A stretch of 64,000 nt of DNA from Lachnospiraceae bacterium (GTDB taxonomy: Bacteria > Bacillota > Clostridia > Lachnospirales > Lachnospiraceae), in the NCBI GenBank assembly GCA_910575005.1, contig CAJTCL010000004.1:1-64000 (forward strand), given 5' to 3'. The position numbers and the translations under genes were made by a program. The notes beneath the pieces were generated by a model. It made no database searches. It was not told the origin of the DNA and was given only the letters and a program-made list of their open reading frames with translations. This document shows positions 13,915 to 49,001 of this stretch, piece by piece. Numbering within the stretch: position 1 is the stretch's first letter; each line of letters opens with the position of its first letter.

Positions 13915-16900
13915 TTACATCTCCCTCTGATTTTTCTTTTCATTTTCCTTTGCTTCATGGTCTTTGCCCTGACCGGAAACAATCGCCTTTTTCTCCGCAA
14001 GGCGGGCTTTTAAGGAAGTCCTTGCTGCCGGACGCTCCTGCTCCCTTCTGTTTTCTTCCTTTTGGGCTTTCTCCCCTGCCCCGTTATTCAGCACGTTGTC
14101 AATCATGTTATAGTTGTTTTCTTCCAGTTCCTCAATCTTGGCAAGGGGCTTGTATTCCGACAGCTTTTCAAGCAGTTCCGCCGCCTTCTTTGTTTCCTCC
14201 GGCTCTGCGCCCTCCACAAGCACATTGGCAAGCCAATCTGTCATATATCCGGTATCGCCTTTTTCTATGGCTTCCGCCCCGTCCGCCACATTTTCCGTCA
14301 TGCTCTGTATGCTGTCATGGTATTGGTTCCGGTCATAATCATACACAAAACGGTCAAACTCTACCGCAAGCTGTTCCGCAGGCGTCAGGTCAGGCATACG
14401 GATTTCCCACACCCTCGCTTCCATTTCCTCGCTCATCTTCCCGTCAATCTCCATGTCGGGCAGCTTCGCCGCAAGCTGGGCGATTACTTCCATCGCCTGC
14501 GGATTGTCCTTTATTTCAGGGATATAGTCTAATATCTCTAAATCAATCCGCCTGCCGGACAGTATATCCATTTCCGTATCCTGATATGGTTCATCGCCCG
14601 GTTTATGGATACTGACGCCGATTGCGGGTATCCCGTTCATGCGCTCCGGCGGTATCTGCTTCCAGATAGCGATTGCTTCATCAACAGTAGGGATATTCTC
14701 ATAAAACTCGCCTAAATTGTGGAACTCTCCGCACTCCGCAACGGTCAGCGTGACTTCCGGCTCTGCCCGCTCCGGGAATAAAGCTGCCCGCAGCCCTTTT
14801 TCCTCATGGTTTTCTCCGTCAAATATCGTGATCCGGTCAGTTTCCGCATTGAACTCTATGGAAAAGTCCAGCCTTTCCCCCTGCTGAATCTGTGCAAACT
14901 CCCCGATGTCAATCCGCTCTCCATACTGCCCCATATCCACAAAAGGCAGCCTGCACTCCGCATAGGCTCTGCACAGCCCTTCCGCATCAAGACCGCTTGT
15001 ATTCTTAAACCACCGTTCCTCGTCATTCATGCGGATATTGAAAAGGCTTATCAGCTCATGTTCTCTTGCTTCACGCACTCTGTCAAGATATTCCTCCACA
15101 TTCGGAAGGTACGTTTCAAGCGTTCCCGTCCTTTGGGCGGTAATCGGGTTTATATCCACTTTTATGCCGCCAATAGAAAGCCCGTCTGCATTGAATGTGT
15201 CAAACAGCACATCTTCACGCTCGTTTGTGGAAAGTTCCACCGCCACGTCAAGGTCAGAGCCGTTCCGCTCCAATCCCCGGCATCTGCTCCCGGTTACTGC
15301 CACGTCCACAATCTCCGCATCAATGCCGGATTCATCAATCTTTGCCTGCACATGGCATTTTACGGTTTCCTCAATCTCTGACGGGTTCATTTCGCTGATC
15401 TCATGGAATAATTCATCGGTCTTTGCCTTGAAGTCTGCGACCACATTTCCCTTCGGTTCGATTTTGTCTGCCGCTTCCACCCTTTCCATCAATCCATCAT
15501 AATCAATCGGTATCAGTTCGTCACTGTCACGGATATTCCCCCTTGCTCCGTTATCAAAAGGATTGTCTTTCAAATCTTCCACTATATTGTCAAGCGCTTC
15601 CCTGATGTCCACATCGGGATTGTCATACACACCACCGTCTATTTCCTTGTAATCCATTCCCATAATGGAATAATCATAGCCGCCCTCTGTTTCCTGTATG
15701 CTGATATAGCGGTCTGCTATCTGGAAGGCAAGCTCCGTTTCCGGCATTTTTTCCGGCTCTGCTGTCAGCTTCAAATCATGTCCAGAAGTGTCCTGCCTGT
15801 CCTCTAAGGATTGTTTCATCTCCGCAAGCACTTGTTCCCGTTCATCTCCGAGGTCAATGATCTCGTCCTCATCTTCCAAATCCAACGCTGCGGCTGTCTG
15901 CTTTGCTCCGGCTGGCTCTGCCTGCTGTTCAGACTGCTTCGGTTCTATCTGTTCCGGCTCTGCCTGTTTTGGTTCTGCGTCGGACTTCTGGACATCATGT
16001 CCAGAAGTTTCTTTTACTTCCTCCTGTTCCTCTGCGGCTCTGGCTTGAACAATATCCTTATACTCATTTTCCATCAGACCAAGAAATGCGCTTCCCATTT
16101 CTTCATAAGAAATATGTTTTTGGGCATTTCCCAAAGTGACTGTCACATCTTCAACTCCAAACACCGCAACAGCGTCATGTTCGCCTACTCCTATTACCCG
16201 TTCATAGCCGCCAATAAGAGCCTTTGCAAATTCCTCACGAATATCCTCTCCATTTTGCATACGGAAAGCTATATCATATATGTCAGGCTCTGATACCAAG
16301 CCGCCACCATACAACGCTTTTTCGCTTGGCTTAAATCTGTCAATATATCCGTCCTCAAAAAAGCGATACCCCAAATCTTCTATCTCATCCCACGCAAGAA
16401 ATTTTTTTGCAACCAAAGGCGCATTGTCTGTTTCAAGGAACTGCTTTTCTTCCTCTGTCAGTTCAATCCCCGTTCTGTCCGCCTCCTGCTCCTTTACGCC
16501 CTCCAATGCCCTTGTAAAATGCGGAAGTTCCGTAAACCCATAAGAATCTACAAAGTGTGTGCTGTTCTTCCCGTCCTCATGCAGCACAACAATGTCGCTG
16601 ACAGAAAGGGAATGTCCTTTGTAATCCGCCGGGTGGTCTATATTAAACTTTTCAAAAAGAGAATTGAGCCTTTGGCTTTGTGTCTGCCCCTGAATGTCCG
16701 AAAGTTCCCCCGTATAGATAAGATTGTAATTCCCCGGCTGGATTTCTTTGAAGTCATCAGACAGAAGATTCCTTCTTAGCAATTCCCCTGTGCCTGCAAA
16801 ATGAAAACCACGAAGCTCCGGGCTGTCTTTTAACTGGTAAATGCCATATTTGTCCGTATCTCCATATAATAGCTGCGCTTCTTTTTCCGGTGCGCCCTCC

Positions 16901-18870
16901 GCAAGTTCCTCCTGCATGGAACGGAACGCCCTCTCGTTTTCCCAATCGCCCTTTTCTATGCCAAAGATGCCCTCATACTCCGTAATCTGTTCCTCCCCCT
17001 CTATCAAGGTTTCCGAACCGTCCTCATGGAGCTGGTAGACAGGCAGGTCACGCTCAAACAGTTCCACCGCTGTTTCTTTTGTGAGCGGCAGCATTTCTTC
17101 CCATGTATATCCGTATTCGTGCATTTGTGACAGCCCGATCATGCCGTCAGGGAGCGCATCTATCTCCGCCTGCGCCCGATCCATTGTTTCCATAAGCAGG
17201 GAAATATCATCTTTCTGCCCCGCAATAGACCTTGCAAGGGAAACCGTTTCCTCCATGTTGTCCAGCTTATAAGCATGGTTCATAATCAGGTTCTTTTCCT
17301 CCATACCAAATACTGTCCCGGAAAATTCCATGCGGCTGATAAGCTGCTCTGCCTGCTGCATAGAGGAAAGGTGGTGTTTCATTGACACTTCTTTTTTATT
17401 CAGGTCAATCTCAAAGTCATTAAACTGCGGGTATCCGTCATTTCTGCCGCCGCCGACAATAATAGGGATATAATCAGCGTCATAATTTTCCAGACATCTG
17501 TGGACGCTCTTTATGCCCTTTTCTTCCAGCTTTGCAAGCGCCGCCATAATCTCCTGCACTTCCTCTGGCGTTTTATTGGTAATGCGCTCTACCTCAAAAC
17601 CGTCCGCATAGGTAATCTTCAAAATCACATCATCTGCCCCGATAGGCTCTTTTGCTTTTTCATTCAGTGCCATTTCTGCCTGCATATCAATCACTTCGTT
17701 TGTGTCAATATTATACCGGACATCAAGGCGGTACTCCCCAAACTCCTTTGTATCCTGATTGGCAATCTCCGTAGTCCATGCACCCCTGCTCTCCAGATAT
17801 GCGGCAGCGTTCAGCCTGTCATCCTCATTCATGCCAGAAAGCGCTTCCACAATCTCCGCTGCTTCCATGCCCTTTACGCTCAAAAGGCTGTATTCTGACA
17901 AGTCCTCTTTCTGTATCAGAAGAAGGCTCTCTTTTTCCTGCTCCTGCATGATTTCCCGGTCACGCTGTAATTCCTGAAGCTGCCCCTCAATGCCCGTTAT
18001 CAGTTCCGATGCAGTTTTCCGGATTGTGTCAAGGGAAGATTTTAACTCCCTCATGTCTTTTCCGCTGCTCCACCCGGCTATGTATCCGAAAGAATAATCT
18101 GATGTGTCTATGCCGAAGTGCTGGCACACCGTATAGGCAATACTTTCCGCTTCGACTTCTTTGGTGTTCCTGTCCTTTGCAGGAGCAAGCAGATTGTCAT
18201 TTTCCACTTCCCGGCTGTGCAGCATGGCATGTGCGGTTTCATGCACCATTGTTTTCAAAGTCTGGCTCTCGCCCATGCCCTCCTGCACCCCGATCCGGTT
18301 CTCTGCGGGGCTGAAATATCCCTTTGAATCGCCGGGAATTTCCTCAAAGCTGATTGATACGGGGGAAACATAGGTAATTGCCTTGATAAAGTCCTCATAG
18401 CCCTCCACTGTCGCTAATAATTCCTTTGCTTCCAGTTCCGGGATAGGCTCTCCGTCCGTCTGCGATACGTCAAATACGGACACCGCACGAAAAGCGGGAA
18501 TCTTTACCTCCACTTCCTCGGTCTGCGGCATACCGTCCTTGTCAAACACCACTTCGCCTGTTACCGGGTCTAACTTATCCCGTTCCTCTTTTATCTTATA
18601 TGGGGCAGGGGCAAGGATACGGATTCCCTTTTCCCCTTTATTTACATGGCGGTTGAAATTGGTCTGCCATGCCTTGAAGCCTGCGACTAAGGTTGCGTCG
18701 GGCTTTTGTAAGGCTATCAAAAGCGTGTTGTTGACGCTGTAATTATGGAATTTTGACATAGTGGAGAGATAATTTTTGTACTTCTCGCTCTCAAATAATT
18801 CTTTTAAGCCTTCTTCCAGCTTGTCGGTGATTTCTTTTACTTTCTGTTTTTCTGTTTTTGCGTCTGCCAT
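13915..18870 (-). CDS. LtrC/ArdC-like giant multidomain protein with zincin and nucleotidyltransferase modules
   Basis: A 1651-residue protein. Residues 1-150 are the ArdC N-terminal ssDNA-binding-type domain (FHNYSVNNTLLIALQKPDAT, NKGEKGIRILAPAPYK). At about 160-290 follows a zincin metallopeptidase fold with HETAHAMLHS (His near 212-216) and a downstream glutamate in EVEAESIAYTVC. Residues about 390-950 hold polyvalent domains without a catalytic motif that I recognise. A disordered Gln/Glu/Pro linker (about 950-1060) carries TSGHDVQ and a partial second copy. At about 1160-1260 there is a nucleotidyltransferase-like segment (GSRCRGLERNGSDLDVAVEL). Proteins of this type protect or prepare incoming DNA in recipients; that role is inferred from ArdC relatives. 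The ATG at 18870 has AAAGGA upstream. Confidence 0.82.
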   Translation of the reverse strand: MADAKTEKQKVKEITDKLEEGLKELFESEKYKNYLSTMSKFHNYSVNNTLLIALQKPDATLVAGFKAWQTNFNRHVNKGEKGIRILAPAPYKIKEERDKLDPVTGEVVFDKDGMPQTEEVEVKIPAFRAVSVFDVSQTDGEPIPELEAKELLATVEGYEDFIKAITYVSPVSISFEEIPGDSKGYFSPAENRIGVQEGMGESQTLKTMVHETAHAMLHSREVENDNLLAPAKDRNTKEVEAESIAYTVCQHFGIDTSDYSFGYIAGWSSGKDMRELKSSLDTIRKTASELITGIEGQLQELQRDREIMQEQEKESLLLIQKEDLSEYSLLSVKGMEAAEIVEALSGMNEDDRLNAAAYLESRGAWTTEIANQDTKEFGEYRLDVRYNIDTNEVIDMQAEMALNEKAKEPIGADDVILKITYADGFEVERITNKTPEEVQEIMAALAKLEEKGIKSVHRCLENYDADYIPIIVGGGRNDGYPQFNDFEIDLNKKEVSMKHHLSSMQQAEQLISRMEFSGTVFGMEEKNLIMNHAYKLDNMEETVSLARSIAGQKDDISLLMETMDRAQAEIDALPDGMIGLSQMHEYGYTWEEMLPLTKETAVELFERDLPVYQLHEDGSETLIEGEEQITEYEGIFGIEKGDWENERAFRSMQEELAEGAPEKEAQLLYGDTDKYGIYQLKDSPELRGFHFAGTGELLRRNLLSDDFKEIQPGNYNLIYTGELSDIQGQTQSQRLNSLFEKFNIDHPADYKGHSLSVSDIVVLHEDGKNSTHFVDSYGFTELPHFTRALEGVKEQEADRTGIELTEEEKQFLETDNAPLVAKKFLAWDEIEDLGYRFFEDGYIDRFKPSEKALYGGGLVSEPDIYDIAFRMQNGEDIREEFAKALIGGYERVIGVGEHDAVAVFGVEDVTVTLGNAQKHISYEEMGSAFLGLMENEYKDIVQARAAEEQEEVKETSGHDVQKSDAEPKQAEPEQIEPKQSEQQAEPAGAKQTAAALDLEDEDEIIDLGDEREQVLAEMKQSLEDRQDTSGHDLKLTAEPEKMPETELAFQIADRYISIQETEGGYDYSIMGMDYKEIDGGVYDNPDVDIREALDNIVEDLKDNPFDNGARGNIRDSDELIPIDYDGLMERVEAADKIEPKGNVVADFKAKTDELFHEISEMNPSEIEETVKCHVQAKIDESGIDAEIVDVAVTGSRCRGLERNGSDLDVAVELSTNEREDVLFDTFNADGLSIGGIKVDINPITAQRTGTLETYLPNVEEYLDRVREAREHELISLFNIRMNDEERWFKNTSGLDAEGLCRAYAECRLPFVDMGQYGERIDIGEFAQIQQGERLDFSIEFNAETDRITIFDGENHEEKGLRAALFPERAEPEVTLTVAECGEFHNLGEFYENIPTVDEAIAIWKQIPPERMNGIPAIGVSIHKPGDEPYQDTEMDILSGRRIDLEILDYIPEIKDNPQAMEVIAQLAAKLPDMEIDGKMSEEMEARVWEIRMPDLTPAEQLAVEFDRFVYDYDRNQYHDSIQSMTENVADGAEAIEKGDTGYMTDWLANVLVEGAEPEETKKAAELLEKLSEYKPLAKIEELEENNYNMIDNVLNNGAGEKAQKEENRREQERPAARTSLKARLAEKKAIVSGQGKDHEAKENEKKNQREM
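15775..15788. repeat. Half copy of the 23-bp palindrome
   Basis: Carries the right arm ATGTCCAGAAG and centre; the left arm is lost. The reading frame gives DTSGHDLKL, very close to the [10 protein letters not shown] of the copy at 20453, suggesting decay of a once complete element inside the LtrC-like linker. Confidence 0.6.
15985..16007. repeat. 23-bp dispersed palindrome, in LtrC-like gene
   Basis: Arms CTTCTGGACAT and ATGTCCAGAAG around one base, perfect. Read in the gene as [10 protein letters not shown] within a disordered linker. Confidence 0.85.
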
Positions 18871-18894
18871 AGTTTCAATCCTTTCTTTGCATGA

Positions 18895-18926: not shown

Positions 18927-18939
18927 CCTGAAAACAGAA

Positions 18940-20179: not shown

Positions 20180-23100
20180 TTATAAAGTTTCTTCTTTGTC
20201 TTTTTCCTTTTTCGGCATGGTCTTTTCCATATCCCCTCCGGCAACCTTTCTTTTAAACGCTTCCAGCTTCTCCTTTAATGAGGTTCTCTGTGCGGGCTTG
20301 TCACCCATCGCCGCTACAAATTTCAGCCCCTGCGGATTGCCATTGTCCACTGTGTAATTGTGTCTTGCGTTTTCAACCGGGTATGGTATCGGCGTGTCGG
20401 CGGCAGTTTCCACCGTTTCCGATTTCTCAATGGCAGGTTCTTCCTGATTTAACTTCTGGACATCATGTCCAGAAGTGTCCTGACCGTCTTTTTCTTCCTC
20501 CCCGGCATTATCCATATCAGGACTGTCGTCCATGCCGAGGGCATTATCGCCTTTTTCGTCCATATTGAGCAGGGCGTTTAAGGCGGAAAGGCGTTCCAGC
20601 TTTTCCGCAAGCTCCGCTTCCTGTGCAAAAGGCTTGTTTACCTCCGCTTTGGCTGTTTCAAGCTGCCGCTCCACCGTTTCCAGTTTCGTTTTTGCTTCAG
20701 AAAGCTGTTTCGGCATGGATTCCAGCGCATGGTTGATACGGGCAAGGTTTCCGAGAGGGTCAGAGCCGACCTCAAGGTTATGGGAGAGCTGCCCTTTTAA
20801 GTTCATTACAAACTTATGGTTAAGCGAATCAAAGGACACAGACATCTTAAACCCGGCATATTCCCCCACTGTGGCAGGCACATTGACGGTTTTCATCTCC
20901 TTGCACATCTCTATGAGTGCGGTTCCGGCTTCCTTTCTGTCCGTATAGGTTTTATCCCCGACTTTCATAACAAACTGCTCCTTGTCTGCCGGGAGGTTTG
21001 TTTTTGCCCTTTGTATGTCAGCCTCCATGCCGCCGATCCGCTCTTTCAGAATGGCTATCTGCTGTGGGTAATGCTTTGCGATATTGTCCTCAAGGCGGTA
21101 TTTCTGGCTGGTATGGTTCGCTTTCATCAGCTTTAGCTTTGATACCTGAATATCGAGATCCATCTTTTCTTTTATATAGGGATTACCTGTCGCAAGGGCT
21201 TTTACCTCCGCATAAGTGAGCGCCGCTTCGTCCACGTCCTCGCAGCTACGCACCGGGCTTTTGCTTGTCATTATCTGCGAAATAAATTTCTGTTTATTTT
21301 CAATGACCTGCCATGAGTAGCTGTCAAATGTTCCCTCCGTCACATAACGGAAAATCTTGACTTTCTCATTCTCATTTCCCTGACGCAGAATCCGCCCCTC
21401 CTGCTGTTCGATGTCGGAAGGACGCCACGGCACATCAAGGTGGTGTAATGCGATGAGCCTGTCCTGCACGTTCGTTCCCGCCCCCATTTTCTGTGTCGAA
21501 CCCAATAAAAAACGAACCTGCCCGCTTCTCACTTTCCCGAACAGCTCCGCTTTCCGTGTGTCTGTATTCGCACTATGGATAAACGCTATCTCATTCTCCG
21601 GCACTCCTTTCTCTGCCAGTTTGTTTTTTATATCCTCATAGACGTTAAATGTTCCGTCATTTTTTGGTGTGGACAGATCACAGAAAATGAGCTGCGCCGA
21701 TTTCTGCTCTTTGGTCTGCTCCCATATCTCAAACGCCTTGTTTACACACATTACCGCTTTGGAATCCTCATTGTCCGGCAGCATATCATTGATAAGGCGC
21801 TGGTCTAAGGCTAACTTCCGCCCGTCACTGGTTATCTTGAGCATATTATCCTGATATGGTTCAACAAGCCTGTTGCGTACCGCTTCGGCTCTGTCAGCAA
21901 GCGAAGAAACCATATTCTGCTGGTACTCGCTCGGTTTTAGCACCACGTTTTCATACTCTGCTTCCGGCACAGGCAGCTTCAACATATCCGGTGTCTGAAT
22001 GTCAGCGCTTTCTTTAAATAAAGAGATAAGCTCCGGCAAATTAAAGAACTTTGCAAACCTTGTCTTTGCCCGGTATCCAGTTCCCTCCGGGGCTAATTCT
22101 ATCGCTGTTTGAGTTTCGCCAAAAGAGGAAGCCCAACTGTCAAAATGCCCAAGCCCTAACTTCTGTAACGTACCGTACTGGAGATAGCGCATATTGGTGT
22201 AAAGTTCCGTCATACTGTTGCTGATCGGTGTTCCGGTTGCAAATGTCACACCCTTGCCGCCCGTTATTTCATCGAGGTACTGGCACTTCGCAAACATATC
22301 CGAGGACTTCTGCGCTTCCGACTGCGCTATGCCCGCCACGTTCCGCATTTTTGTGTAGAGGAACAGGTTCTTGTAATAATGGCTTTCATCTACAAAGAGC
22401 CTGTCAACGCCAAGCTGCTCAAAAGTCACTACGCTGTCTTTCCTTGAAGTGTCATTCAGCTTATCAAGCCTTGTAAAGAGCGACTTTTTCGTTTTCTCCA
22501 TCTGCTTAATGGTGTAGCGTTCCCCATTATCTTCCTTTGCCTGCTGTATGGCAAGCTCTATCTCGCTGATCTGGCGCTCTATCATCGCCTGCTGGCGTTC
22601 CATTGAAAGGGGGATTTTCTCAAACTGCGAATGTCCGATAATGACCGCATCATAATCGCCTGTTGCAATCCTCGAACAGAATTTCTTCCGGTTTGCCGGC
22701 TCAAAATCTTTTTTCGTGGCAGCTAAGATATTAGCGCCCGGATATAGGCGTAAAAAATCGCTTGCCCACTGCTCCGTCAAATGGTTTGGCACGACAAATA
22801 AACTCTTTTGGCATAATCCCAACCGCCTGCTCTCCATAGCCGCCGCTGTCATTTCAAAGGTCTTGCCCGCCCCGACACAGTGCGCCAGTAAGGTATTATC
22901 CCCGTATAAAACGTGTGCGACTGCGTTTTTCTGGTGCGGTTTCAGTGTAATGTCCGGCGTCATGCCGGGGAATTTCAGGTGCGCCCCGTCATACTCCCTC
23001 GGTCTTGTGGAATTAAATAGCTTGTTGTACTTTGCCACCAAGTCCTGCCTGCGCTCCGGCTCCCGGAATATCCAGTCCTTAAAGGCTTCCCTTATGGTTT

Positions 23101-26100: not shown

Positions 26101-29100
26101 CCGGTTCTGTAGCTGACAGTTCTCCTTCTCTTTGGGAGAAATCTTTCCATACCCTCTCTGAAACAGCCCTGAAATAAGAAGATTCATCTTCCATAATCTC
26201 ATATTCAATCTCCTTCAATTCCTCAAGGCTTTCTGCATCTGCTATCTTTTCATGGTATTTAAAATACACTGCTTCCCGGCTGAGAATCCCCTCCAACCGT
26301 TCCAGTTCCGGCTCTGGCATACGCTCCCATATATCGTCCTTTTCTGTATGGATGGTAAAGCCTTCCCCGTCATCGTGGTATTGCAGGGTATATTGCAGGG
26401 AATCATGTTCCCCACGAATGTCACACTCAAAATCATAGACGGTAGTCCGGGAACCAGCAGAATATTCCCTGTTAATCAATACCAGATTCTGTATATCGTC
26501 TGCGGTCAGCGGCTTCTCTGCACTGTCTTTTTGCACTCCTGCCTTTGCCTGTTCCACATACGCCCACTCTGCCGCTTCCTGCCTGTCGGTTTCCTTTTCC
26601 ACCTGTTCAAGATATTCCCCTGCTTTTTCTCTTGTTGCAAATGTGTGTACTGTTCCGTCACTGTCACGGTAATACTCATCACGAATATCATCCCAAATGG
26701 CAAAATCTTCCCCTGGCGCAAAAGCATCACTTGTTTCTGTTACGGAAAATCTTTTGTATGATTCAACCTCGTTTTCCTTTGCAACCTGTTCCGCAAAGGC
26801 AAGCATGGCATCCACTTCTTTGTCCGCTTCGCCATTCTCCAACTTTTCACGGACTGCGGCGGCATTAATATCCGGGAAATCATCACTGCCCTTTCCTGAC
26901 CTCTGGACATCATGTCCAGAAGTTTCCCCCTGTGCCTGCTCCCTTTTGTATTCGCTCTGTTTCTGCATGGAGCTGAACACCATCTCATCATATCCGATCA
27001 CATCAATCAGGTCTATATGGCTGTCTATGTATTCCTGCGCCAGTCCACGGTTGATAAAGAATCGGTTATGCTCCGGGTAAGGCACAAGAAGCCCGTCCTC
27101 CCCAGGTGTCACAAGGCGGTAGCGCACTCCCTCCCTGCCATCGGCATATTGGTGTGTATAAAAACCTATTTCCGGCTCTGAATAATCCTCCGATGATTCC
27201 AGTGCAACCGTAATCTTTTCCACTTTCTCTGCATGATCAGCGGCAAATTCTTTTGCGTAATCCTCCCCGTCCTCTTTTGCCCCGTCCAGTGTTTCCGAAA
27301 CAGAAAGGGGGCTTGCGTCTGTATGGTGGGTATTATATAAGGCATACCCCTCCGTTTCCTTGTCAATCCATAAAAATCCCCCGTCAGGCAGCTTCGCCGC
27401 CCACTCCGTAGGCTGACCATTATCATCGTCCATATCATGTACGATATGCCAGTCCAGTTCCCCCTCGGAAACATCTGAAATATCATAATTGTTCTGCTCC
27501 TCCGCCTGCTTTTCTTCTGCCCGTATCGTAAGTTCTTTCTCAATCTCAATATATCTTCTTGCCTGATTGACAAAGCCATTCAGGACAGCAGGGTGCGAAG
27601 CGGCAACTATATCCCGGTTTTCATACATGGCATAAGGCTCAATAGACTTTGCCCACTCCTTATTTTCCGGGGAAATCCTGTCCTCCTGCCTGCGGTGCAT
27701 AATAGTGTTTGCAAGCACATAACTGACACGTTCGATACCGTATTCCTTTATGACACCCTCTGCTGTTCCTTTGGGCAGGCGGTATCCGTCAAAGTTTTCA
27801 GCGATTACCCGGTCTATGGCATCTTTGCAGGCAACTTTTGTGTCACGCTCCATTTTCGCCTGCGCTTTTTCAAGTTCTTTCTGTGCCTGTTCTTCTTTAT
27901 ATACTGCAAATGCTTCTTTTCCTTTCGGGGATAAATACTTATCTTCCTGAACGAGCTTGCGGATACGCTTTTCCACCACTTTCCAAGACAAAAGCACATC
28001 TGCGTAAGGCTCTGAAATATTGCCTTTCCTCAATCTGATGCCTTTAAAATCGTGATCCTCCCAACTGTGGTCACTCCCGGCAAGGGCATGGGAGCTGCCG
28101 CCTGTGCCATATTCTTTTTTCAGGAAATCAGCGGCTTCTTTGCTGTCATGCCCCTCCATGAAATAGTCATAGATACGGAATGAACCATGATGATAACCGC
28201 TCCCGCTTCCGAGCCTGTGGTCTATCTCGTCCTGCGTGATAAAATCTTCTTTTCTGACTTCCACGCTGTCAGATACCGGAAACGTCTTTTTTTCCAGAAG
28301 AAGGTTGTCAAGCTCCGCCCTTAATTCCTCATTTGACATGACAAAACGGACACGCATTTTTTTCTCGCCGCTTTCAAGCTGCGCTAACGCCTTATCCATG
28401 TGGGAAGCAGCCAGATCAACGCCCTCCGGCGTTGACAACAGTTCTATCAATCCCGCATGGGAATCCGGATAATTATTCGCCTTTAATTCCAGTTCTTCCG
28501 GCATCTCCCCAATACCGTCACGGAAAAAGAAATACAGGCGGTCAGCGATGCGCCCCCGCTCCACTTCATCCACAAGGTAGGCTTCGTTTGCGCCCATATA
28601 AGCGCCGCTCTCTACCTGAGAACGTATCTGCTGTTCTATCTCCTGCCAGCCCATTGTAAACTTTGGACGTTCAAGGGCAGATGTGCCATAGCCGACTGTC
28701 ATTCCCTGACCGTCAAACCATACCGCTACCTGCTTTCCGTCAAACTCGAAGCCCTTTCCGGTGGTTTTGTATTCCCTTTTGAGAAATTCTGCCATTTCCT
28801 CCGGTGTTTTGCCCTGCTGGTACTTGGCGTAAATGCGCTTGCGGCTGTTATCCCTGCCACCCCCGCTCCGCAGGATTGCGTCAAGCTGTTCTTTTGGCAA
28901 AGTTTCCTTTTTCGGTTCGGGGCTTGCCTTTTCTGGCTGGACACTGCCCTGCTCCGCCTCTTTCATGGCGATGCTACCCACCTGCTCCGCAAACATGGAG
29001 AACAGGTCAAGCTGCTGGTACATTCCATTTGTGTCAATCTGTTCCGCCTTTTCTCCCGGAAGCAGATATACCCCGTCCTCCATATAGGAATTTACCCAAT

Positions 29101-35606: not shown

Positions 35607-38327
35607 CTAATTTAATCTGCCAAACGCATAGAAGTGGCTCTGCCAGTAAGACGTGTTGATACTGGCGTATTTGATCGGATCGCCGCAGTGTATCATCACG
35701 CCGTTTCCGCAGTATATCCCCACATGGCTCACGGGTCCTGCCGAGTTGTATGTACCCGTAAAAAAGATAATGTCCCCTGCCTTTGCGTCCGCCGCCGATA
35801 CAGGCGTACACTGGTCATAAATCCCCTGTGCTGTTGTCCGTGGCAGATTGTGTACCCCGCTGTTGGTAAATACCCAGCAGACAAAACCGGAACAGTCGAA
35901 AGACGTGGACGGGCTTGAGCCGCCCCACACATACGGATAGCCTAAATATTTTGCGGCTTCTTCCATAAGCGCCTGCACCGTTGCATCATCATAAGAATCC
36001 GGCGGTATGGCATTTCCCCCGCCGCTCCCTGCACCCGGCGTTTCCCCGTAAAGAGTTCCCTCCCCGGCTTCAAAATAAAATAACGGGTTATAATACTCCC
36101 CGTTATACAGACACTCAATATGCAGGTGGCTTCCGGTGCTGCTCCCCGTATTCCCCGTTGTTCCTATGGTATCGCCATGCTTTACGCTCTGCCCCGCACT
36201 GACGCTCAACGTGTCCATGTGGGCATATTTGGTACAGTACCCCTTATCGTCCTCTATGACGATATAATTCCCATAATAGCTGTCATAGGCGGCTGTGGTG
36301 ACTGTGCCATCCATCGCCGCAAGGACTTCCGTTCCGGTTGGCACTGCAATATCCACGCCCCGGTGGAACTGTTCTGCCCCCGTTACCGGGTTGATGCGGT
36401 AGCCATAATAGCTGCTCACATAGTTGTACCAGTATAAATTTAAAGGCGTGTAAAACTGCTGTGTCAGACCATGCGTTTCATTGTAAAGCGCATAAATGTC
36501 TTTCTGCTCGCTGTTCATGTGTCCGGCTACCACTACATTCAAATTTTTTGCGGTCAGCGTGACTTCCAGTATGGTTACGGTATATTCTTCTTCCTCCTCA
36601 TACTCATATTCTTCCTCCGTTTCCTCCCCCGTTACCGGGTCTGTGACGGTTCGTGTGCCTGTCTTTGTTACCGTCCTTGTCCTCGTTTCCGTTGTCGGGT
36701 TTAAGGTCAGCTCATACATCTCGTCAAAAAGGCTCTCGACCTCCCCCTGCACGTCCGCCGCTGTAAATTCGGTATGGACTGCGGAAAGGTAGCTGATGAG
36801 TGCGAACGGGTCATGCCCGATTGCGTCAAGGTTATAACGGTACTCGTCATAATCCGGATAATCCGTTTCTATGGAATCAATCTCTTTCTGCAATTCCATT
36901 TCCAGCTCTGAAAAAGCTAAATCCGCAGCGTCGATCTCTGCCGGAACGCTCATATAGCTGCCCGCCAGCGTGGTACTTATTCCATTTGAGAACATCGCCC
37001 CGCATGAGGACACAGAGGTCATTATCATAATAAGCAGGACTGCAAACGCACCGACAGCCACAAGTGCGGAAGCGTGTTTTGCCGCTATCTCCTGCAATTT
37101 CTTTGCAACCGTTGTGGTAATGTTTGCGGATTTTACAGCCGCCTCTTTTGTATTTTTTGCCGCCTGCCCCGCCCGTTTTGCCTTTGCGTACTCACGCTTG
37201 ATGCGCTGTTTCTGTAACCGTTTCTGCAACTGCTTCTTTAGGGTCTTTTCCTGCATTTCCGGGTTTTCCTCAAGGAATTTCTGGTAGCGGAAATTGACTT
37301 CTTTCTTAAACTGCTTTTTCTCCAGTTTTTCCACTTTCGCCCGCTGCCGCTGTTCCTTCCCCTTGTAATGACGCTTTATGAAGCGGTAGCCATCTTCGGC
37401 TTTCTGTTCTGTCTTATGTGCGCCCTCCACTGCGGAATTATCTTTCTCCGCTTCGGCAACCTTGCCATGTGCGTAATTCGTAAACTCCGAGCCTGCCCTG
37501 CCCGCCATGCGCTTCACCGGATTGTCCGCATGGAAAGGCTTTTCCTTTACCTCTGCGGTCAGCACATATCTTGCCCTGCCCGTCTTTTCGTCAAAGACAC
37601 GCTCTAAGGAATACTCTTTCTTCTTTGGCAGCTTCTTCCTTGCCTTTTGGGTACGCTCTGCCGCTTTTTCAGCCTTTCCCTGCAACTTATTTAATTTCTT
37701 GCTGCCCTGAAACTCCGGCTCTGCGCCATCGGTAAAGGCATCGTCTTTTGCAAAGGTGGCATCTTTTGTCTGGAAGTCACGCTCAAAATCAGATTTTTTC
37801 GTGCGCTCCCTGTCCTGATGCTCCCGCCTACGGTATCTGCCCTTTTTTTCGCTCTGGTGGTAAGTATCCCTGCGGCGGTAATCGTCCTTAAAATCTTTTG
37901 TTTCCCCGGTCTGCTCCCCGCCGCTGTCCTCTGTAAAAGCGTTTTCTTCCTTTGTAAAGCCGCCCTGCGTCTTGCCCTCCACACCGCCGCTCCCCGGATT
38001 CTCATTTTCCTTAAAAAAACTGTTCTCCTTTTGGAACTGCCTTGACTGCCTGCGCTTTTTTTCTCCGGGCTTTGCTTTCTGTCCGGCTGTTTTCTCTGTA
38101 CTGCCCTGAAAACTGTTCCGGCTCTCCCCAAAACCGCCGCCCTCCGGTTTTTCTTTGGGCTTTTGGACATTGTGTCCAGAAGTTTTATCCGCATCTCTCG
38201 GCTGGTGTGCGCCGGACTGTTTCCGCTTTGCATTTTTGGCATTATCTCCCTTTGTGGGAGCGCCGCCTGCAAAAGCATTTTTATCCTTTGCAAATTCAGC
38301 CGACTGTTTTTTCTTTTCTTCTGCCAC
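35607..38327 (-). CDS. Bifunctional cell-wall hydrolase (M23 peptidase + NlpC/P60), VirB1-like
   Basis: A 906-residue transfer protein that should open peptidoglycan for the mating channel. Residues 1-400 are Lys/Glu/Gln-rich, disordered and cytosolic, with a TSGHNVQ palindrome near 50. One membrane helix (about 417-441, ALVAVGAFAVLLIMIMTSVS) leads outside. The M23 domain has HRGVDIAVP near 659 and GSHLHIE near 733 (zinc ligands). The NlpC/P60 domain at the end has FDCSGF (Cys near 811), SHVGIY (His near 867) and IHCG. All catalytic residues are present in both domains. The start is a GTG at 38327 with GGAGGTG upstream, overlapping the context of the preceding stop. Confidence 0.92.
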   Translation of the reverse strand: MAEEKKKQSAEFAKDKNAFAGGAPTKGDNAKNAKRKQSGAHQPRDADKTSGHNVQKPKEKPEGGGFGESRNSFQGSTEKTAGQKAKPGEKKRRQSRQFQKENSFFKENENPGSGGVEGKTQGGFTKEENAFTEDSGGEQTGETKDFKDDYRRRDTYHQSEKKGRYRRREHQDRERTKKSDFERDFQTKDATFAKDDAFTDGAEPEFQGSKKLNKLQGKAEKAAERTQKARKKLPKKKEYSLERVFDEKTGRARYVLTAEVKEKPFHADNPVKRMAGRAGSEFTNYAHGKVAEAEKDNSAVEGAHKTEQKAEDGYRFIKRHYKGKEQRQRAKVEKLEKKQFKKEVNFRYQKFLEENPEMQEKTLKKQLQKRLQKQRIKREYAKAKRAGQAAKNTKEAAVKSANITTTVAKKLQEIAAKHASALVAVGAFAVLLIMIMTSVSSCGAMFSNGISTTLAGSYMSVPAEIDAADLAFSELEMELQKEIDSIETDYPDYDEYRYNLDAIGHDPFALISYLSAVHTEFTAADVQGEVESLFDEMYELTLNPTTETRTRTVTKTGTRTVTDPVTGEETEEEYEYEEEEEYTVTILEVTLTAKNLNVVVAGHMNSEQKDIYALYNETHGLTQQFYTPLNLYWYNYVSSYYGYRINPVTGAEQFHRGVDIAVPTGTEVLAAMDGTVTTAAYDSYYGNYIVIEDDKGYCTKYAHMDTLSVSAGQSVKHGDTIGTTGNTGSSTGSHLHIECLYNGEYYNPLFYFEAGEGTLYGETPGAGSGGGNAIPPDSYDDATVQALMEEAAKYLGYPYVWGGSSPSTSFDCSGFVCWVFTNSGVHNLPRTTAQGIYDQCTPVSAADAKAGDIIFFTGTYNSAGPVSHVGIYCGNGVMIHCGDPIKYASINTSYWQSHFYAFGRLN
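38160..38182. repeat. 23-bp dispersed palindrome variant, in hydrolase gene
   Basis: Left arm CTTTTGGACAT, right arm TGTGTCCAGAAG (two changes from the consensus). Read as KTSGHNVQKP in the disordered N-terminal region. Confidence 0.8.
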
Positions 38328-43784: not shown

Positions 43785-44657
43785 TTAATGTGCGTTCAGC
43801 ACCGACTTCGCAAGTGAGCCTGTCTTGAAAAGGCTGAAGCAGAGGATAACGGTGTATGCCGCCACCGACCACAAGGCTGTGTGCAGGTTGCTGGCAACCG
43901 CAACACTGGCAACGAGTACGGAATAAATGCCGACACATACCATGATGAAGAACCCCTGAAACGCCAGAGCGCAAAGCCCCTTGATGTAATTGTTCCCGAT
44001 GCTGCCCCATTCCCGGTTGCTTAATGTCGCAAAGGGAACGGGTGCCACTGATATATAAAGGTATATTTCTATCATGCGCCCATATAAAACGACGGTGATG
44101 AGGACGGACATGATTTTCATGCACAGGCTGACAATCATGGTTTCTATCCCAAGCCCGATCAGTTCGCCAATGCCCATAGTGGAAAGCTGGTTGTTGAACA
44201 TGTTTGTCAGCGTAGTCGTCACATCAAGGCTCGTAGAGCCTGATATAGCGCCCGCCGCATTTGTAACGATATGGTTTCCCACATCGAAGATCGCCATTGT
44301 GATGTCAAAAGTCTTGGAGAGCATCATCACAGCGATACATGCTTTTACGAGGTAGCGGAAGAAAAATTCACTCCCTACCTCGTGCATGTTGTTTTTGTCC
44401 ATTACCATTGTTATCAGCTCATAACATAAAATTGCGCTGATGATAAGCCCCGCTATGGGAATCATGACATTCTCTGAAAGGTTTTTTATCATGGAAAATA
44501 TGCCTGCGTTCCATGCGCTGGGCGTCTGCCCGACTTCCCCGGCAATCTCGCCCACTTTCGTATTTACGTCCGTGAACATCGTGCCGAGGTTGTCAAGCAC
44601 CCACCCCTGAAGCATCTCCTTTATAAATTCAGTGATCTTGTCAATGATTGCGCCCAT
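43785..44657 (-). CDS. VirB6/TrbL-like polytopic channel protein
   Basis: A 290-residue membrane protein with about six hydrophobic helices: MIPIAGLIISAILCYELITM, FFRYLVKACIAVMMLSKTF, MIVSLCMKIMSVLITVVLYG, LYISVAPVPFATL, GLCALAFQGFFIMVCVGIYS and LWSVAAYTVILCFSLFKTG. The motif SVAPVPFATLSN is common in the TrbL/VirB6 proteins of Gram-positive conjugative elements. It should form the inner membrane channel. The gene follows the Maff2 gene after only 3 nt and precedes the PrgI gene. Confidence 0.88.
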   Translation of the reverse strand: MGAIIDKITEFIKEMLQGWVLDNLGTMFTDVNTKVGEIAGEVGQTPSAWNAGIFSMIKNLSENVMIPIAGLIISAILCYELITMVMDKNNMHEVGSEFFFRYLVKACIAVMMLSKTFDITMAIFDVGNHIVTNAAGAISGSTSLDVTTTLTNMFNNQLSTMGIGELIGLGIETMIVSLCMKIMSVLITVVLYGRMIEIYLYISVAPVPFATLSNREWGSIGNNYIKGLCALAFQGFFIMVCVGIYSVLVASVAVASNLHTALWSVAAYTVILCFSLFKTGSLAKSVLNAH

Positions 44658-44660
44658 GAA

Positions 44661-44876
44661 TTATGAGAACAGTGTTGTAAGCTGTGGAATCACCGTCTGC
44701 GCCACGATTACAATGCCTCCGCCTGCCATCAACTGTTTAATGCCCTGTGATTTTGCACCCGGATTATCATTTCCATATCCCTCAAGCAGATTGATAACGC
44801 CCCATACTGCCACGCCTGCGCCGATTGCTGTAACGACTGTCTTTAAACCTGTAACTGCTGTTGTGAAAAAACTCAT
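44661..44876 (-). CDS. Maff2-family small membrane protein
   Basis: A 71-residue hydrophobic protein with two helices (VVTAIGAGVAVWGVINLLEG and GIKQLMAGGGIVIVAQTVIP) separated by a Gly/Asn/Pro loop. This is the Maff2 family, small VirB2-like proteins of conjugative elements. The 3' end is 3 nt before the VirB6-like start. AAAGAGGT precedes the ATG. Confidence 0.88.
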   Translation of the reverse strand: MSFFTTAVTGLKTVVTAIGAGVAVWGVINLLEGYGNDNPGAKSQGIKQLMAGGGIVIVAQTVIPQLTTLFS

Positions 44877-45182
44877 AATTTCTACCTCTTTCTTTCCTTA
44901 AATTTGATTTTTTGATAAAGAAAGAGCTTTGATATGTAAATTCCCCGCCCTTTGTGGTAAAATAAGGGCAGGGAAATCCTTTGGGAGAACCCCTGTGGGC
45001 ATCCGGTACATTCTGTTTGGCGATAGGCTGTGCCGGGTGTCTTATTTCTGTGCTTTCCCAAATACAATCAAAACTCCGTTTCCTGACTTCCGGTCTTTTA
45101 TCCGGAAACCGGTGGCTGGTTTACAGTTCCATATTCAGTTGTCTTTTCTGCACTTCTGGACATCATGTCCAGAAGCCGCTAT
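44877..45182. other. Intergenic between virD4 and Maff2 gene
   Basis: No gene. It contains the 23-bp palindrome (45153-45175) and a 12-bp direct repeat TATTCAGTTGTC flanking it (45132-45143 and 45180-45191, the second running into the virD4 stop). An imperfect stem near 45090-45115 (CCGGTC..., ACCGG) may be a leader structure of the Maff2 operon. No clear promoter was found. Confidence 0.5.
45153..45175. repeat. 23-bp dispersed palindrome, after virD4
   Basis: Perfect arms around one base, 7 nt beyond the virD4 stop codon, enclosed by 12-bp direct repeats. Confidence 0.85.
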
Positions 45183-47048
45183 TCAGTTGTCCGGGGATTC
45201 ACTTTCCTGCCTGCTGACTTCCCCACAGTCAAAGGCTTCGTCCACCTCTGTATTCGGAGTGACTTTCATGTGGTGCAGATGCTTCACATAGTCCTCAATG
45301 TCAAAGGCGTTTTTCTGGTCATAATCGGACAGCTCCTTGTACCTGCCATGCTTCGTTATATCAAATTTATCCGAGAAGAATGGTCTGACACCTCTAAGCT
45401 GCATGATACATTTCCCGCCATCCATGACCGCAATCTCATCTTGGCTCATCAATTCTTTTCCGGTCTTTTGGTAGTTCAGACCGTAGGACTGCGACGTACC
45501 CCTTGTGTCCGAGGTATTGTAAAGGTCTATCGTTTCCTTGCCCAAAACCTCCGCCAGCTCTTTCAGGGTGGTTTTCTCCTTGCCGCCGAGGAATAAGGTG
45601 GTGTCACAATTCCCTTCGATTGTGTCAGCGTTGTCCTTGTAAATTGCTTTAAGCTGTGATTTAGACTGCAAAATGATAGATGCCGATATTTCCCTGCTCC
45701 GGATTGTGGCGATCAGCTTTTCAAACTGCGGAATCTGCCCGATGTTCGCAAACTCATCAAGTAACATCCTGACATGAACCGGGAGCCTCCCGTTATAAAC
45801 ATCATCCGCCTTGTCGCAGAGCAGGTTAAAAAGCTGTGAATACATAATTGACACAACAAAGTTAAAAGTGGCGTCCGTATCGGAAATAATGACGAACAAC
45901 GCTGTTTTCTGCTCTCCGAGCGTGTCAAGCTCCAGATCGTCATACTCCATCAGGTCACGCAGCTCCTTGATGTCAAATGGCGCTAAACGTGCGCCGCAGC
46001 TAATTAAAATCGACTTTGCCGTTTTGCCCGCCGCTAATTTATACTTGGCATACTGCCGTACTGCAAAGTGGTTCGGGTCTTTCTCCGCCAATTCATCAAA
46101 CAGAAGGTCAACGGCGTTCTTAAAATTCTCATCATCTTCCCTTGCTTCGCTTGCGTCAATCATATCAATCAGCATGGCGAAATTCTGTTCTTCCTCCGGG
46201 GCTTCGTACCAGATATAGGCGATAAGCGCTGTGTAATACAGTTTTTCCGCTTTCACCCAAAAGTCTTCTCCGGATTGCTGCCCCTCCCCTTTGGTATTGA
46301 CAATAATCGTGTTTACGAGTTTCAAAATGTCCTTTTCGCTCCGAAGATAGGCGAAAGGATTGTAGTGCATGGACTTCGCAAAGTTTATGGTATTGAGGAC
46401 TTTTATCTTATATTTGCCCTTTTTCAGCATCTTTCCGCATTCGATCAGCACTGTGCCTTTCGGATCAGTGACAACATACGAACTATGGAGCTGCATCAGG
46501 TTCGGTTTTACAAAAAACCTCGTCTTGCCCGAACCAGAGCCGCCGATAACAAGGATATTTTTATTTCTTGCGTATTTCGGCTGTTTCGGTCTGCCTGACA
46601 TCATCAGCCGCTCCGTCTGCGTCAAGAGGATATTGTTCTCAAACTCCGAATCCATATATGGCTCGATGTCCTTCGCATTTCCCCAACGTGCCGAACCGTA
46701 CTCCACGCCCTGCCGGAACTTCTTGGCATTTTTCGCCTTGAAATACACTGCAAGCCGCAGCGCCACTCCGCAGCACACCCCGATCAGCAGGTCTTTCGGG
46801 TAAAAACTTGGCAACGGGTTGGAAAATAAATCCTCCATCCCCGCCATGACCGCCATCATCTTTGCGGAAGCGTCCTGCCCAGGCGATACCCGCCACAGCC
46901 ACGCTATTTTGTCACAGAAATACCCGGCAAGCACATAGGGCAGGTTCATCAGGACAAGTTTCTTTTTATCCAGATTCCCGGTCTTTGCCTTGAGGTTCTT
47001 CGGAATGGCTTTTAAGTCTTTGGCTATGCCGCTTACGATATTGCTCAT
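45183..47048 (-). CDS. virD4: VirD4/TraG-type coupling ATPase
   Basis: A 621-residue coupling protein that brings the relaxase-DNA complex to the channel. Two membrane helices lie near the N-terminus (LPYVLAGYFCDKIAWLW and LLIGVCCGVALRLAVYF). Walker A is VIGGSGSGKTRFFVKPNL near 172, the Walker B region LLDEFANIGQIPQFEKLIAT near 429, with ISASIILQSKSQLKAIYKD after it. It overlaps the PcfB gene by 4 nt. Family assignment is secure. Confidence 0.95.
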   Translation of the reverse strand: MSNIVSGIAKDLKAIPKNLKAKTGNLDKKKLVLMNLPYVLAGYFCDKIAWLWRVSPGQDASAKMMAVMAGMEDLFSNPLPSFYPKDLLIGVCCGVALRLAVYFKAKNAKKFRQGVEYGSARWGNAKDIEPYMDSEFENNILLTQTERLMMSGRPKQPKYARNKNILVIGGSGSGKTRFFVKPNLMQLHSSYVVTDPKGTVLIECGKMLKKGKYKIKVLNTINFAKSMHYNPFAYLRSEKDILKLVNTIIVNTKGEGQQSGEDFWVKAEKLYYTALIAYIWYEAPEEEQNFAMLIDMIDASEAREDDENFKNAVDLLFDELAEKDPNHFAVRQYAKYKLAAGKTAKSILISCGARLAPFDIKELRDLMEYDDLELDTLGEQKTALFVIISDTDATFNFVVSIMYSQLFNLLCDKADDVYNGRLPVHVRMLLDEFANIGQIPQFEKLIATIRSREISASIILQSKSQLKAIYKDNADTIEGNCDTTLFLGGKEKTTLKELAEVLGKETIDLYNTSDTRGTSQSYGLNYQKTGKELMSQDEIAVMDGGKCIMQLRGVRPFFSDKFDITKHGRYKELSDYDQKNAFDIEDYVKHLHHMKVTPNTEVDEAFDCGEVSRQESESPDN

Positions 47049-47521
47049 AGGCTCTGCCCCCTGTCCTTGTTTTTCTCCCTGCTCCGTTCCCAGTTCTTAT
47101 CCTGCGATACTGCGTCCTTGAAATGCTTCAATTTTTCCCTCACGGAAACTTTGCCTTTCTTCTTCTCATTACCATAAACAAATTCCTTGAATGCCTGCGC
47201 TATCGCATCGGCATCTTTACCCTTGAAAAAGACCAGATATTTCGGCGGTTCGCACGTCTTATCTTTCTTTATGGCAAAACCAACATTGTACTTTTTCGCC
47301 ACACGCTCAAAAGATTTGATGTTGCCGTCAGTGACTTCGATTGACGATACTCCCACGCCCTCGCCAACGAGCTTTTTCACAGAAGTTTTTCCATGCGTTT
47401 TCTGTGCTTTCTGCTTCCGGTGGTTTAAGTACATCCTCATGGCGGCTTTCAGCACGTTGGCGTCTAATTTTGCGGTCTTAATCACAAGGGCGATTGTTTT
47501 CTGTGTTACTTCCTCCTGCAT
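47045..47521 (-). CDS. PcfB-family (DUF3801) transfer protein
   Basis: A 158-residue basic protein starting MQEEVTQKTIALVIKTAKLD, with YKVGFAIKKD-like core NVGFAIKKDKTCEPPKYLVFFKGKD, the typical DUF3801/PcfB pattern. In pCF10-type systems PcfB helps dock DNA substrates to the coupling protein, and here the gene directly precedes virD4 with a 4-nt overlap. The C-terminus is a Lys/Arg-rich tail. Confidence 0.85.
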   Translation of the reverse strand: MQEEVTQKTIALVIKTAKLDANVLKAAMRMYLNHRKQKAQKTHGKTSVKKLVGEGVGVSSIEVTDGNIKSFERVAKKYNVGFAIKKDKTCEPPKYLVFFKGKDADAIAQAFKEFVYGNEKKKGKVSVREKLKHFKDAVSQDKNWERSREKNKDRGQSL

Positions 47522-47658
47522 GAAACACCTCCTTGTTAATTCCTGCTAAAATACACGCACTAAGGGGGAATCCCCCGGCAGGTAATGTCATAAATGATTT
47601 TCACTGTAAAATACATTCTTTTCTCCTTCCTACCTCTGGACATCATGTCCAGAAGTTA
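47522..47658. other. Short intergenic with palindrome
   Basis: 137 bp with no gene; it holds the palindrome at 47633-47655 and a Shine-Dalgarno AAGGAGG for the PcfB gene. Confidence 0.6.
47633..47655. repeat. 23-bp dispersed palindrome, after the 47659 gene
   Basis: One mismatch in the left arm (CCTCTGGACAT). It begins 3 nt after the stop codon of the minus-strand gene to its right. Confidence 0.85.
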
Positions 47659-48321
47659 TTATTTTTCGTTCAGGCAGTAGATTGTGTGGAGATTCGCACA
47701 CAGCCTGCCATCCCCGTATTCCACATCATCAAGGAGAAGCGCCTGAAACAGCACATCTCCCACATTTTCAAGCAGCGCAGTCTTTTGTTCCCGTTCCGCA
47801 AGATGTCCGTATTCCACACCGTCCGGAACAACGGATTTCCTTGCCGCCTCACAGTGGGTAAACAGTCCGAGGATATATTTATTTGACATGATAAAAGCAT
47901 AGGTTTCCTGCCCCTCATGGGTCATTCTGCATTTCTCCGCTTCCCCCTCTGGAAGCGTAAAGATACACCGTACCGTTTCAAGGCAAAGCCCGCTTTCATA
48001 GTCCGGGTTCAGTTTCTTTTTATACCTCTGCACCCTTGCGTAAATCCCCTCACGCTCCATAATAGAATGGGTACGCTTAAACTGCGGCTTCTTGCAGAAC
48101 ATATCCAAATCCATATACACGTTGTTGATGACCGTCTTTTCCGCATACTGCCGGAAAGATTTCAGCCTTAACAGATAGGCGAGAACCTCATCCAGTTTTT
48201 CCTCTGACAAGATAAACTGGAAAGGCTTTTCTCCAAACCCGATCCTTTCAAACAGGAGCGGGCAGCTCCCTTTTTTGGCTTCCCGTTCCATTACCCTCCT
48301 GACATCACGCAGCGATTCCAT
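47659..48321 (-). CDS. Conserved-looking ICE protein, function unknown
   Basis: A protein of about 220 residues, soluble, with no domain that I recognise. It begins MESLRDVRRVMEREAKKGSC and contains YLLRLKSFRQYAEKTVINNV and AFIMSNKYILGLFTHCEAAR. The ATG at 48321 is chosen because AAAGGAG lies seven bases upstream; an upstream extension overlaps the terminator region. It lies between the structured region (48365-48530) and the PcfB gene, so it may be an accessory transfer protein. Confidence 0.7.
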   Translation of the reverse strand: MESLRDVRRVMEREAKKGSCPLLFERIGFGEKPFQFILSEEKLDEVLAYLLRLKSFRQYAEKTVINNVYMDLDMFCKKPQFKRTHSIMEREGIYARVQRYKKKLNPDYESGLCLETVRCIFTLPEGEAEKCRMTHEGQETYAFIMSNKYILGLFTHCEAARKSVVPDGVEYGHLAEREQKTALLENVGDVLFQALLLDDVEYGDGRLCANLHTIYCLNEK

Positions 48322-48364
48322 ATCTTTCTCCTTTCCGTTTCCCGGTATGCTGACCGGAAACAAT

Positions 48365-48409
48365 AAAAAAAGGGCAGCTACAAATCTCTACTGACTTATA
48401 ACTGCCCTT
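48365..48409 (-). terminator. Strong terminator within the transfer operon
   Basis: 8-bp stem AAGGGCAG / CTGCCCTT (48370-48377, 48402-48409) with a 24-nt loop, followed on the minus strand by TTTTTTTATT. It closes the structured segment to its right and lies about 44 nt before the 48321 start, so downstream transfer genes depend on readthrough or another promoter. Confidence 0.75.
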
Positions 48410-48530
48410 ACGCTGTTCTCCTGTTATACTGTTTTTAAAACAGAGGTCTTCCACCTCCGTACCTCTGGAAACCTTGCCGGAAGTGTGATTGAAAAGATAA
48501 TCACACTTCCAACAAGGCTTGAATGTGCCG
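48410..48530 (-). ncRNA. Candidate structured RNA with stacked hairpins
   Basis: Read on the minus strand, three perfect stems follow one another before a terminator: a two-tier stem (GGAAGTGTGATT at 48479-48490 with its complement at 48499-48510, and outer CCTTG/CAAGG at 48472-48476 and 48513-48517), CAGAGGT/ACCTCTG (48441-48447, 48461-48467) and CTGTTTT/AAAACAG (48429-48443). Such density, ending in a T-tract terminator, suggests a small RNA or an attenuator leader rather than a gene. One frame through it encodes a Cys-containing peptide (CWKC, CSC), so a small protein cannot be excluded. Confidence 0.5.
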
Positions 48531-48550
48531 CCCACTACACTTTGTCTGGC

Positions 48551-48919
48551 TTATGGCATCTCTATTCCCGCTATCTCTGCGAAATGCTGTTTCCAGCCCA
48601 TAAGCTCCCTCTGCTTTTCTTCCGTCAGCCGCTGAAACACATCATCATACACAATATTGGATATTCCCATTTCCTTTGCGAGTATGATAAGCTGCGTGTG
48701 CAGCCATTCCTCCCACAAATCCTCAAAAAGCTCCATGCTCTCCGTAAAGGTAATGTCATTTTCAAAACCCTTTTGCGGCACATAATATTGCAGCTTGACA
48801 AAGCCATACCTGCCGACATCGACCACAACAACGTCCACATCTTCAAGCTCCGCAAAGGCATCCGCCACCTTCCGGCATTTTCTCCGTTCTTCCTCTGTAA
48901 TATATGTTTCTTTCACCAT
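48551..48919 (-). CDS. Small acidic ICE protein, function unknown
   Basis: About 122 residues starting MVKETYITEEERRKCRKVAD. No named domain is recognised. The sequence is strongly acidic in the middle (AFAELEDVDVVVVDVGRYGFVKLQYYVP) and helical at the end. The ATG at 48919 has GGAGGAATTT directly upstream and is preferred over a start 13 codons earlier. It is the gene just downstream of repA and just upstream of the structured RNA candidate. Confidence 0.72.
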   Translation of the reverse strand: MVKETYITEEERRKCRKVADAFAELEDVDVVVVDVGRYGFVKLQYYVPQKGFENDITFTESMELFEDLWEEWLHTQLIILAKEMGISNIVYDDVFQRLTEEKQRELMGWKQHFAEIAGIEMP

Positions 48920-48978
48920 AAATTCCTCCGTTTCCAGTTCCATAGCAGTATCATACACCCTGCCTTAAATTTTTTCCA

Positions 48979-49001
48979 CCTCTGGACATTGTGTCCAGAA
49001 G
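48979..49001. repeat. 23-bp dispersed palindrome variant, after repA
   Basis: CCTCTGGACAT with TGTGTCCAGAAG, starting 4 nt beyond the repA stop codon. Confidence 0.8.

Follow-up and report, generated by a model that had tools for sequence, protein, structure and literature searches.

A 23-bp palindrome recurs across an integrative and conjugative element (ICE) in the window, the whole 64,000-nucleotide stretch of Lachnospiraceae DNA analysed here. Judged from sequence, each copy is very probably a parS-like site where the element's own ParB binds as a dimer, and this ParB would act within a ParA–ParB–RepA_N module. A ParB reader was one of two ideas in the initial annotation, the other being a palindromic element that inserts into coding sequence. 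It is strongly supported at the level of sequence comparison: residues of the ParB recognition helix covary with letters of the site, parB genes of relatives contain sites of their own, ICEs with the closest ParBs carry the same word, and ParBs from outside the original sample fit the rule.

The element is labelled Tn1549-like from its gene content, which comprises a serine recombinase, relaxase, VirD4, VirB4, TrbL, an M23/NlpC hydrolase and two very large multidomain proteins, with ParA, ParB and a RepA_N/DUF6017 protein at its right end. The par pair matches the Pfam families ParB_N and AAA_31/ParA, with HTH_ParB slightly below the cut-off. The ParB is a family member of CTPase fold with a helix-turn-helix (HTH), and its gene adjoins that of ParA; the site at 48979 follows repA, which in turn follows parB. 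The sites and the genes of the module are:

15778–15788, minus strand: half site (left arm alone) in the ArdC/LPD16 gene
15985–16007: palindromic site in the ArdC/LPD16 gene, reading TSGHDVQK on the minus strand
20453–20475: palindromic site in the gene for a 3531-aa protein of helicase/methylase type
26900–26922: palindromic site, second copy in the 3531-aa gene
38160–38182: palindromic site in the M23/NlpC gene, reading TSGHNVQK
45153–45175: palindromic site 7 nt past the VirD4 stop codon
47633–47655: palindromic site 3 nt past the stop codon of the uncharacterised ORF 47659–48363
48979–49001: palindromic site 4 nt past the RepA_N/DUF6017 stop codon
49006–50082: RepA_N/DUF6017 replication initiator, minus strand
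50096–50977: ParB (ParB_N and HTH), the proposed site reader, minus strand
50393–50395: codon of S195 (R in ParBs with C10 sites), minus strand
50474–50476: codon of K168 in the recognition helix, which tracks half-site base 7 (and base 6), minus strand
50961–51746: ParA ATPase, minus strand

All seven near-complete copies located by the initial annotation were recovered, each with at most two mismatches to CTTCTGGACATNATGTCCAGAAG, as against none in 100 dinucleotide shuffles. The half copy that it had placed near 15775 is an exact 11-mer on the minus strand. With one mismatch allowed, 19 half-site matches were observed against approximately 1.1 expected by chance per window. The cargo part (1–13,900) had been described as free of copies and contains neither a full nor a half site, although a half site with one mismatch lies within it at 8050. 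The cargo itself, at 6314–13256, encodes an acetolactate-synthase-like TPP enzyme and, by eye, thiamine-type genes; it has no palindromes. A stricter pattern, CTGGACANNRTGTCCAG, occurs at six places in the 4.29-Mb genome, all within this element (control, 0), and allowing up to three mismatches to CTTCTGGACANNNTGTCCAGAAG gives nine places: the seven of the window and two on contig C1, both within regions of other ParB-bearing elements.

As the initial annotation saw, the sites are tolerated in frame within proteins. Four full copies lie in minus-strand genes of three different proteins, all in one common frame, and read TSGHDVQK (twice), TSGHDVQR and TSGHNVQK; the other three stand at the distances from stop codons listed above, also as first noted. 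By eye, the flanks of the intragenic copies are rich in E, Q and K and are located at domain junctions. The common frame is weak evidence for a role in the proteins, because frame 1 is the harmless one: frame 3 runs into TGA where the centre reads ATGAT, and frame 2 would encode LLDMMSRS. Frame 1 is probably used because it is free of stops and hydrophilic.

The initial annotation had proposed searching related ICEs for the motif. The core TCTGGACANNNTGTCCAGA is present in 14 of 200 family genomes (the own genome included), and the ICEs with the closest ParBs (93, 89 and 86% identical) carry the word, partly at the same places as in the window. Other elements have the same layout with other half-site words: CTTYGGGACA (9–12 copies in G220, depending on method), CTTTRCGACA, CTTCGGGYCA (13–16 copies in each G566 element, again by method), CTTYAGGACC, CTTCYCGACA and CTTYTGGTCA. 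De novo palindrome clustering, in which no letters were assumed, found at least three 23-mers of one layout in 17 of 49 regions, many of which had been picked because they bear the motif, and in 5 of 20 regions picked by ParB alone. The letters of the clustered 23-mers are element-specific. In the control, a single dinucleotide-block shuffle of each region, clusters appeared in AT-rich G536 alone; some real regions also yielded clusters of unrelated palindromes. With one genome per species, the type A word occurs in at least 117 stretches, which among the 80 matches listed are mostly from Clostridia, with a few other groups in metagenome assemblies; six stretches are in viral contigs.

Placement is also shared among relatives. 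Across the window and G212, G221, G225 and G226, all 20 copies within ArdC/LPD16, 3531-aa or M23/NlpC genes are in frame 1, and many other copies lie 0–22 nt past stop codons or follow stretches that, by eye, resemble terminators. In their N-terminal linker region, M23/NlpC proteins read TSGHNVQK in type A elements, TFGQKVQK in type E and TSGQNVPK in type B, the sites not being at one alignment column. After the ORF equivalent to that at 47659, A and E elements each have their own letters. The sites recur at domain junctions, and one relative shows the order motif–DUF3849–motif; the idea of a recombination site or domain cassette was set aside, this pattern being a likely effect of linkers.

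ParB genes themselves provide a second class of sites. A palindrome of 8–10 pairs occupies the loop preceding the HTH in 32 of 103 unique ParB relatives, always in frame 1. The remainder, including the window ParB, have at most seven pairs in the loop, except L174 (nine pairs in a different frame, and outside the 32). In 33 distinct in-parB palindromes, two-sided changes occur at all ten pairs (82 of 330 cells), 25 cells are unpaired and a single cell is G·U; the paired fraction of 92.4% is inflated, because palindromes were preselected at 8 or more of 10 pairs. The pair covariation score is 0.603, compared with 0.138 after shuffling and at most 0.144 after sliding. A weak covariation measure for further pair types was equalled or exceeded in 31 of 500 shuffles. 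L033 and G190, which have in-parB palindromes, were left out of the residue–base counts below for want of an automatic site. The 284-aa ParBs of G212 (2440k) were considered as a counterexample, which they proved not to be: the nearby type A sites lie in type A gene remnants, and these ParBs carry their own internal palindrome.

The letters of the site go with the DNA-contact region of ParB. Residues are numbered here by the ORF of the window ParB. All 39 representatives with K or R at residue 168 have G at half-site base 7, and none of the 15 others does. Among 283 ParB columns, residue 168 is the best predictor of base 7 (54/54 representatives). On a tree built without the HTH (residues 140–200 removed), base 7 has 8 changes, of which at least 7 are forced; residue 168 and base 7 go together in 7 of 7 independent pairs (P = 0.0156). 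The scan covered 283 columns and six positions, and base 7 alone had enough changes for the tree test. R195 goes with C10 in 53 of 53 representatives, yet with only 2 independent changes. The rule at base 6, by which K is matched with G and R with either C or T, holds in 3 of 4 independent pairs, which is not significant on the tree (P = 0.25), with G116 and L142 as exceptions; in dispersed sites outside parB (25 representatives), G6 accompanies K168 in all 18 cases and C6 accompanies R168 in 6 of 7.

The residue–base rule was noticed by eye before counting. An automatic site was missing for 29 of the 103 ParBs; 11 of them received a site manually and 18 were left siteless, 5 of the latter lacking the loop and being Spo0J-like in appearance. 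Removal of three doubtful rows (the second ParB of G533, L164 and L231) left 82, which were thinned to 54 representatives at 85% identity with equal half-site bases 4–9. Hand-set assignments, 17 in all, were made after the pattern had been noticed, and several concern imperfect palindromes, that of G546 being the weakest. Type A is over-represented, the type A pattern having served to retrieve many of its loci. In every non-G7 case, site and HTH are neighbours within one gene, and their joint swapping could therefore contribute to the base 7 signal. In G251 and G536, no site was found in 40 kb under the pattern used.

The starting observation, by eye, was that ParBs with GDSGRTVQR have CGACA sites. 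This also held at newly read loci in G525, G027, G559 and G535; for G540 and G532, for which GGTCA was expected, no site was found in the short stretches searched. None of these six expectations was written down in advance. Checks made after the rule had been written down used seven more ParB stretches of the own genome and nine of the ten named plasmid records that encode a ParB relative. Six of the seven own-genome ParBs are of ICE type, have an in-parB palindrome and fit at bases 7 and 10 (6/6), three being close duplicates of a single type that the set already contained; the seventh, Spo0J-like, has no in-parB palindrome of this layout. A strict in-parB palindrome was found in six of the nine plasmid records, one record being from Cohnella, a member of the Bacilli. 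Base 7 fits in all six, and the base 10 rule in its prior wording (C with R, otherwise A) in five, L351 having G. Relaxing the rules post hoc brought in L348 and L353, which fit at base 7 as well, and left L349 as the only one of the nine without a palindrome. The out-of-sample ParBs include kin of known types (L340, L342, L343 and L350, of one type, L347 and L352) and new recognition helices (L339, L341, L344, L346, L351 and L354).

Comparison with characterised ParBs aligns the covarying residues with the parS-contacting region. The HTH of the window ParB aligned without gaps to Thermus Spo0J (HMMER), with Thermus numbering anchored on G170-K171-S172-R173 and R204. In the Caulobacter ParB numbering of PMC7383237, L156, G167, K168 and S195 align with Q162, R173, S174 and G201, of which Q162, R173 and G201 contact parS; the arginine of Noc at position 201 bonds to a guanine, and S174 is not named as a contact in the available text of that paper. 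In an AlphaFold model (17 sequences, mean pLDDT 83.6), residue 168 lies in a helix spanning 167–176 and residue 195 in one spanning 194–200. Foldseek matches are to ParB, Noc and KorB (E values of 3e-11 to 6e-8, whole-chain TM scores of 0.3 to 0.6).

In the proposed mechanism, one HTH would bind each 10-bp half-site, the pair spanning the 3-bp centre. Relatives of ParB are CTP-dependent clamps (PMC12704722, PMC11790492). We infer that ParB loads at the sites as a clamp, allowing ParA to partition the excised or replicating element; the clamps may also affect the transfer operon, in a KorB-like manner. Several sites would be retained, past stop codons and within interdomain linkers, as an invariant 23-bp word does no harm where eight residues or an intergenic gap are dispensable. 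Co-diversification of site and recognition helix would allow several such elements to be present in one cell without cross-reaction.

Other readers and roles have to be weighed against partition by the element's own ParB. A host factor as reader was rejected because the own genome (G000), with 14 ParB matches, carries several in-parB or dispersed site types among those read, alongside different ParBs. It is possible, though we think it unlikely, that loading of ParB at the dispersed sites serves, in a KorB-like role, chiefly to silence or tune expression of the transfer operon and not partition. The position of many sites between a stop codon and the next ribosome-binding site (the latter by eye), the 13–16 copies, depending on method, in each G566 element and the inclusion of KorB among the fold matches would agree with such a role; the adjoining ParA gene and the sites deep in genes and after terminator-like stretches (by eye) speak against it.

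The palindrome could also act in RNA, as a hairpin in long transcripts that signals processing, protection or translation. It is a strong inverted repeat, often just 5′ of a Shine–Dalgarno-like stretch (by eye), and among 147 dispersed copies G·U exceeds C·A on the operon strand (85 versus 43). This tilt, which strand-biased mutation could produce, is reversed in type B (9 C·A versus 3 G·U) and absent from G566 (7 versus 7). Moreover, in-parB palindromes change on both sides, and their single G·U among 330 cells is better explained by a DNA dimer site than by an RNA stem; as the letters also track the ParB helix, we consider a hairpin very improbable. Rickettsia palindromic elements are repeats of approximately 100 bp or longer that spread by insertion. 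A self-spreading palindrome of this kind, entering genes in frame, would explain the copies in linkers of several proteins, the decayed half copy and the existence of ParB relatives with and without the insert. By eye, however, the flanks share no common body past approximately 25 bp; the letters follow ParB, and orthologous positions, such as that after the 47659 ORF, keep their place while the letters change with the element. This second idea of the initial annotation thus fared poorly, and we give it very little credence.

The proposed ParB sites resemble known systems in part. Canonical parS is 16 bp long, TGTTNCACGTGAAACA, and the window consensus differs from it in length and letters. 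In B. subtilis, one parS lies inside the parB gene, spo0J. The likeness to chromosomal ParB–parS and to Noc–NBS, the latter with a 16-bp site, is that of a palindrome with a ParB-family HTH as its proposed reader (PMC7383237). In contrast, the sites here have 23 bp with a 3-bp centre, their letters vary by element, and they are dispersed over a mobile element, in frame within unrelated proteins.

The KorB operators (OB), whose letters differ from those of the window site, repress promoters, directly or at a distance. Plasmid RK2, whose ParB-family clamp KorB has its operators on a transferable replicon (PMC11790492), is in this a counterpart of the window element with its proposed sites, whereas in the latter ParA is encoded beside ParB. 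The repABC parS sites (PMC9040568) and Burkholderiales centromeres (PMC5450999) are likewise replicon-linked, with specificity between ParB and centromere; they belong to other families, and in-frame placement in linkers is not mentioned in the available text of these papers. A literature search, mostly of listings, found no publication defining sites for the ParBs of Tn1549-like ICEs, and the string 'palindrom' is absent from PMC5512222, which deals with multidomain proteins, among them those of Tn1549-like elements.

Sites also occur in mobilizable elements. Five serine-recombinase loci (defined by a strict serine-recombinase string) and seven MOBV-type loci bear sites with no ParB ORF in stretches of 3.1–8.0 kb, ParB beyond the stretch being possible. 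Six of the seven MOBV-type loci combine a type A site with one of type B/H, type A being present by selection because all were fetched by the type A pattern. In four of these the two sites are 26 bp apart:

L148, 3057–3105: type A and B/H sites
L155, 4138–4186: type A and B/H sites
L184, 2642–2690: type A and B/H sites
L207, 1168–1216: type A and B/H sites

SGI1, a mobilizable element, mimics the parS of IncC plasmids and carries copies of its helper's sites (PMC10954446). The loci here are similar in that mobilizable elements hold candidate sites of other elements' ParBs, and differ in that they come from gut Clostridia, some have two site specificities side by side, and the case is made by sequence. 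We think it reasonably likely that a large class of elements in gut Clostridia shares a hypervariable centromere code, in which helix and 23-bp site co-diverge (K/R168 with G7, R195 with C10), many such ICEs can share a cell, and small mobilizable elements carry the sites of two ParB types to exploit either helper.

The analysis thus offers testable candidate cognate sites for the ParBs of Tn1549-like ICEs and an example of a gene-dense element that stores predicted binding sites inside proteins. It also provides dozens of natural ParB–site pairs, usable for learning DNA recognition, and suggests how many related ICEs could coexist in a cell without being incompatible, and how mobilizable elements might take advantage of them.

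Two further sets of insertions were observed. In L128 (G152:C14), a mobilizable element of approximately 8 kb (about 300–8460) encodes NikA and a serine recombinase, carries four type D palindromes and has no ParB match; BlaI/BlaR1-like genes are present by eye, and the element apparently splits an MBL-like gene. A NikA/MobC reader, suggested by this element, was dropped once the ParB covariation emerged. In G212, G226 and G221 (L070–L089 and L090–L093), insertions interrupt the VirD4 and helicase genes of related ICEs, and many of these insertions match serine recombinases; mobilizable elements inserted in such ICE genes have been described (PMC5704250). One of the G212 insertions disrupts the helicase reading frame within the palindrome, at its TSGHD.
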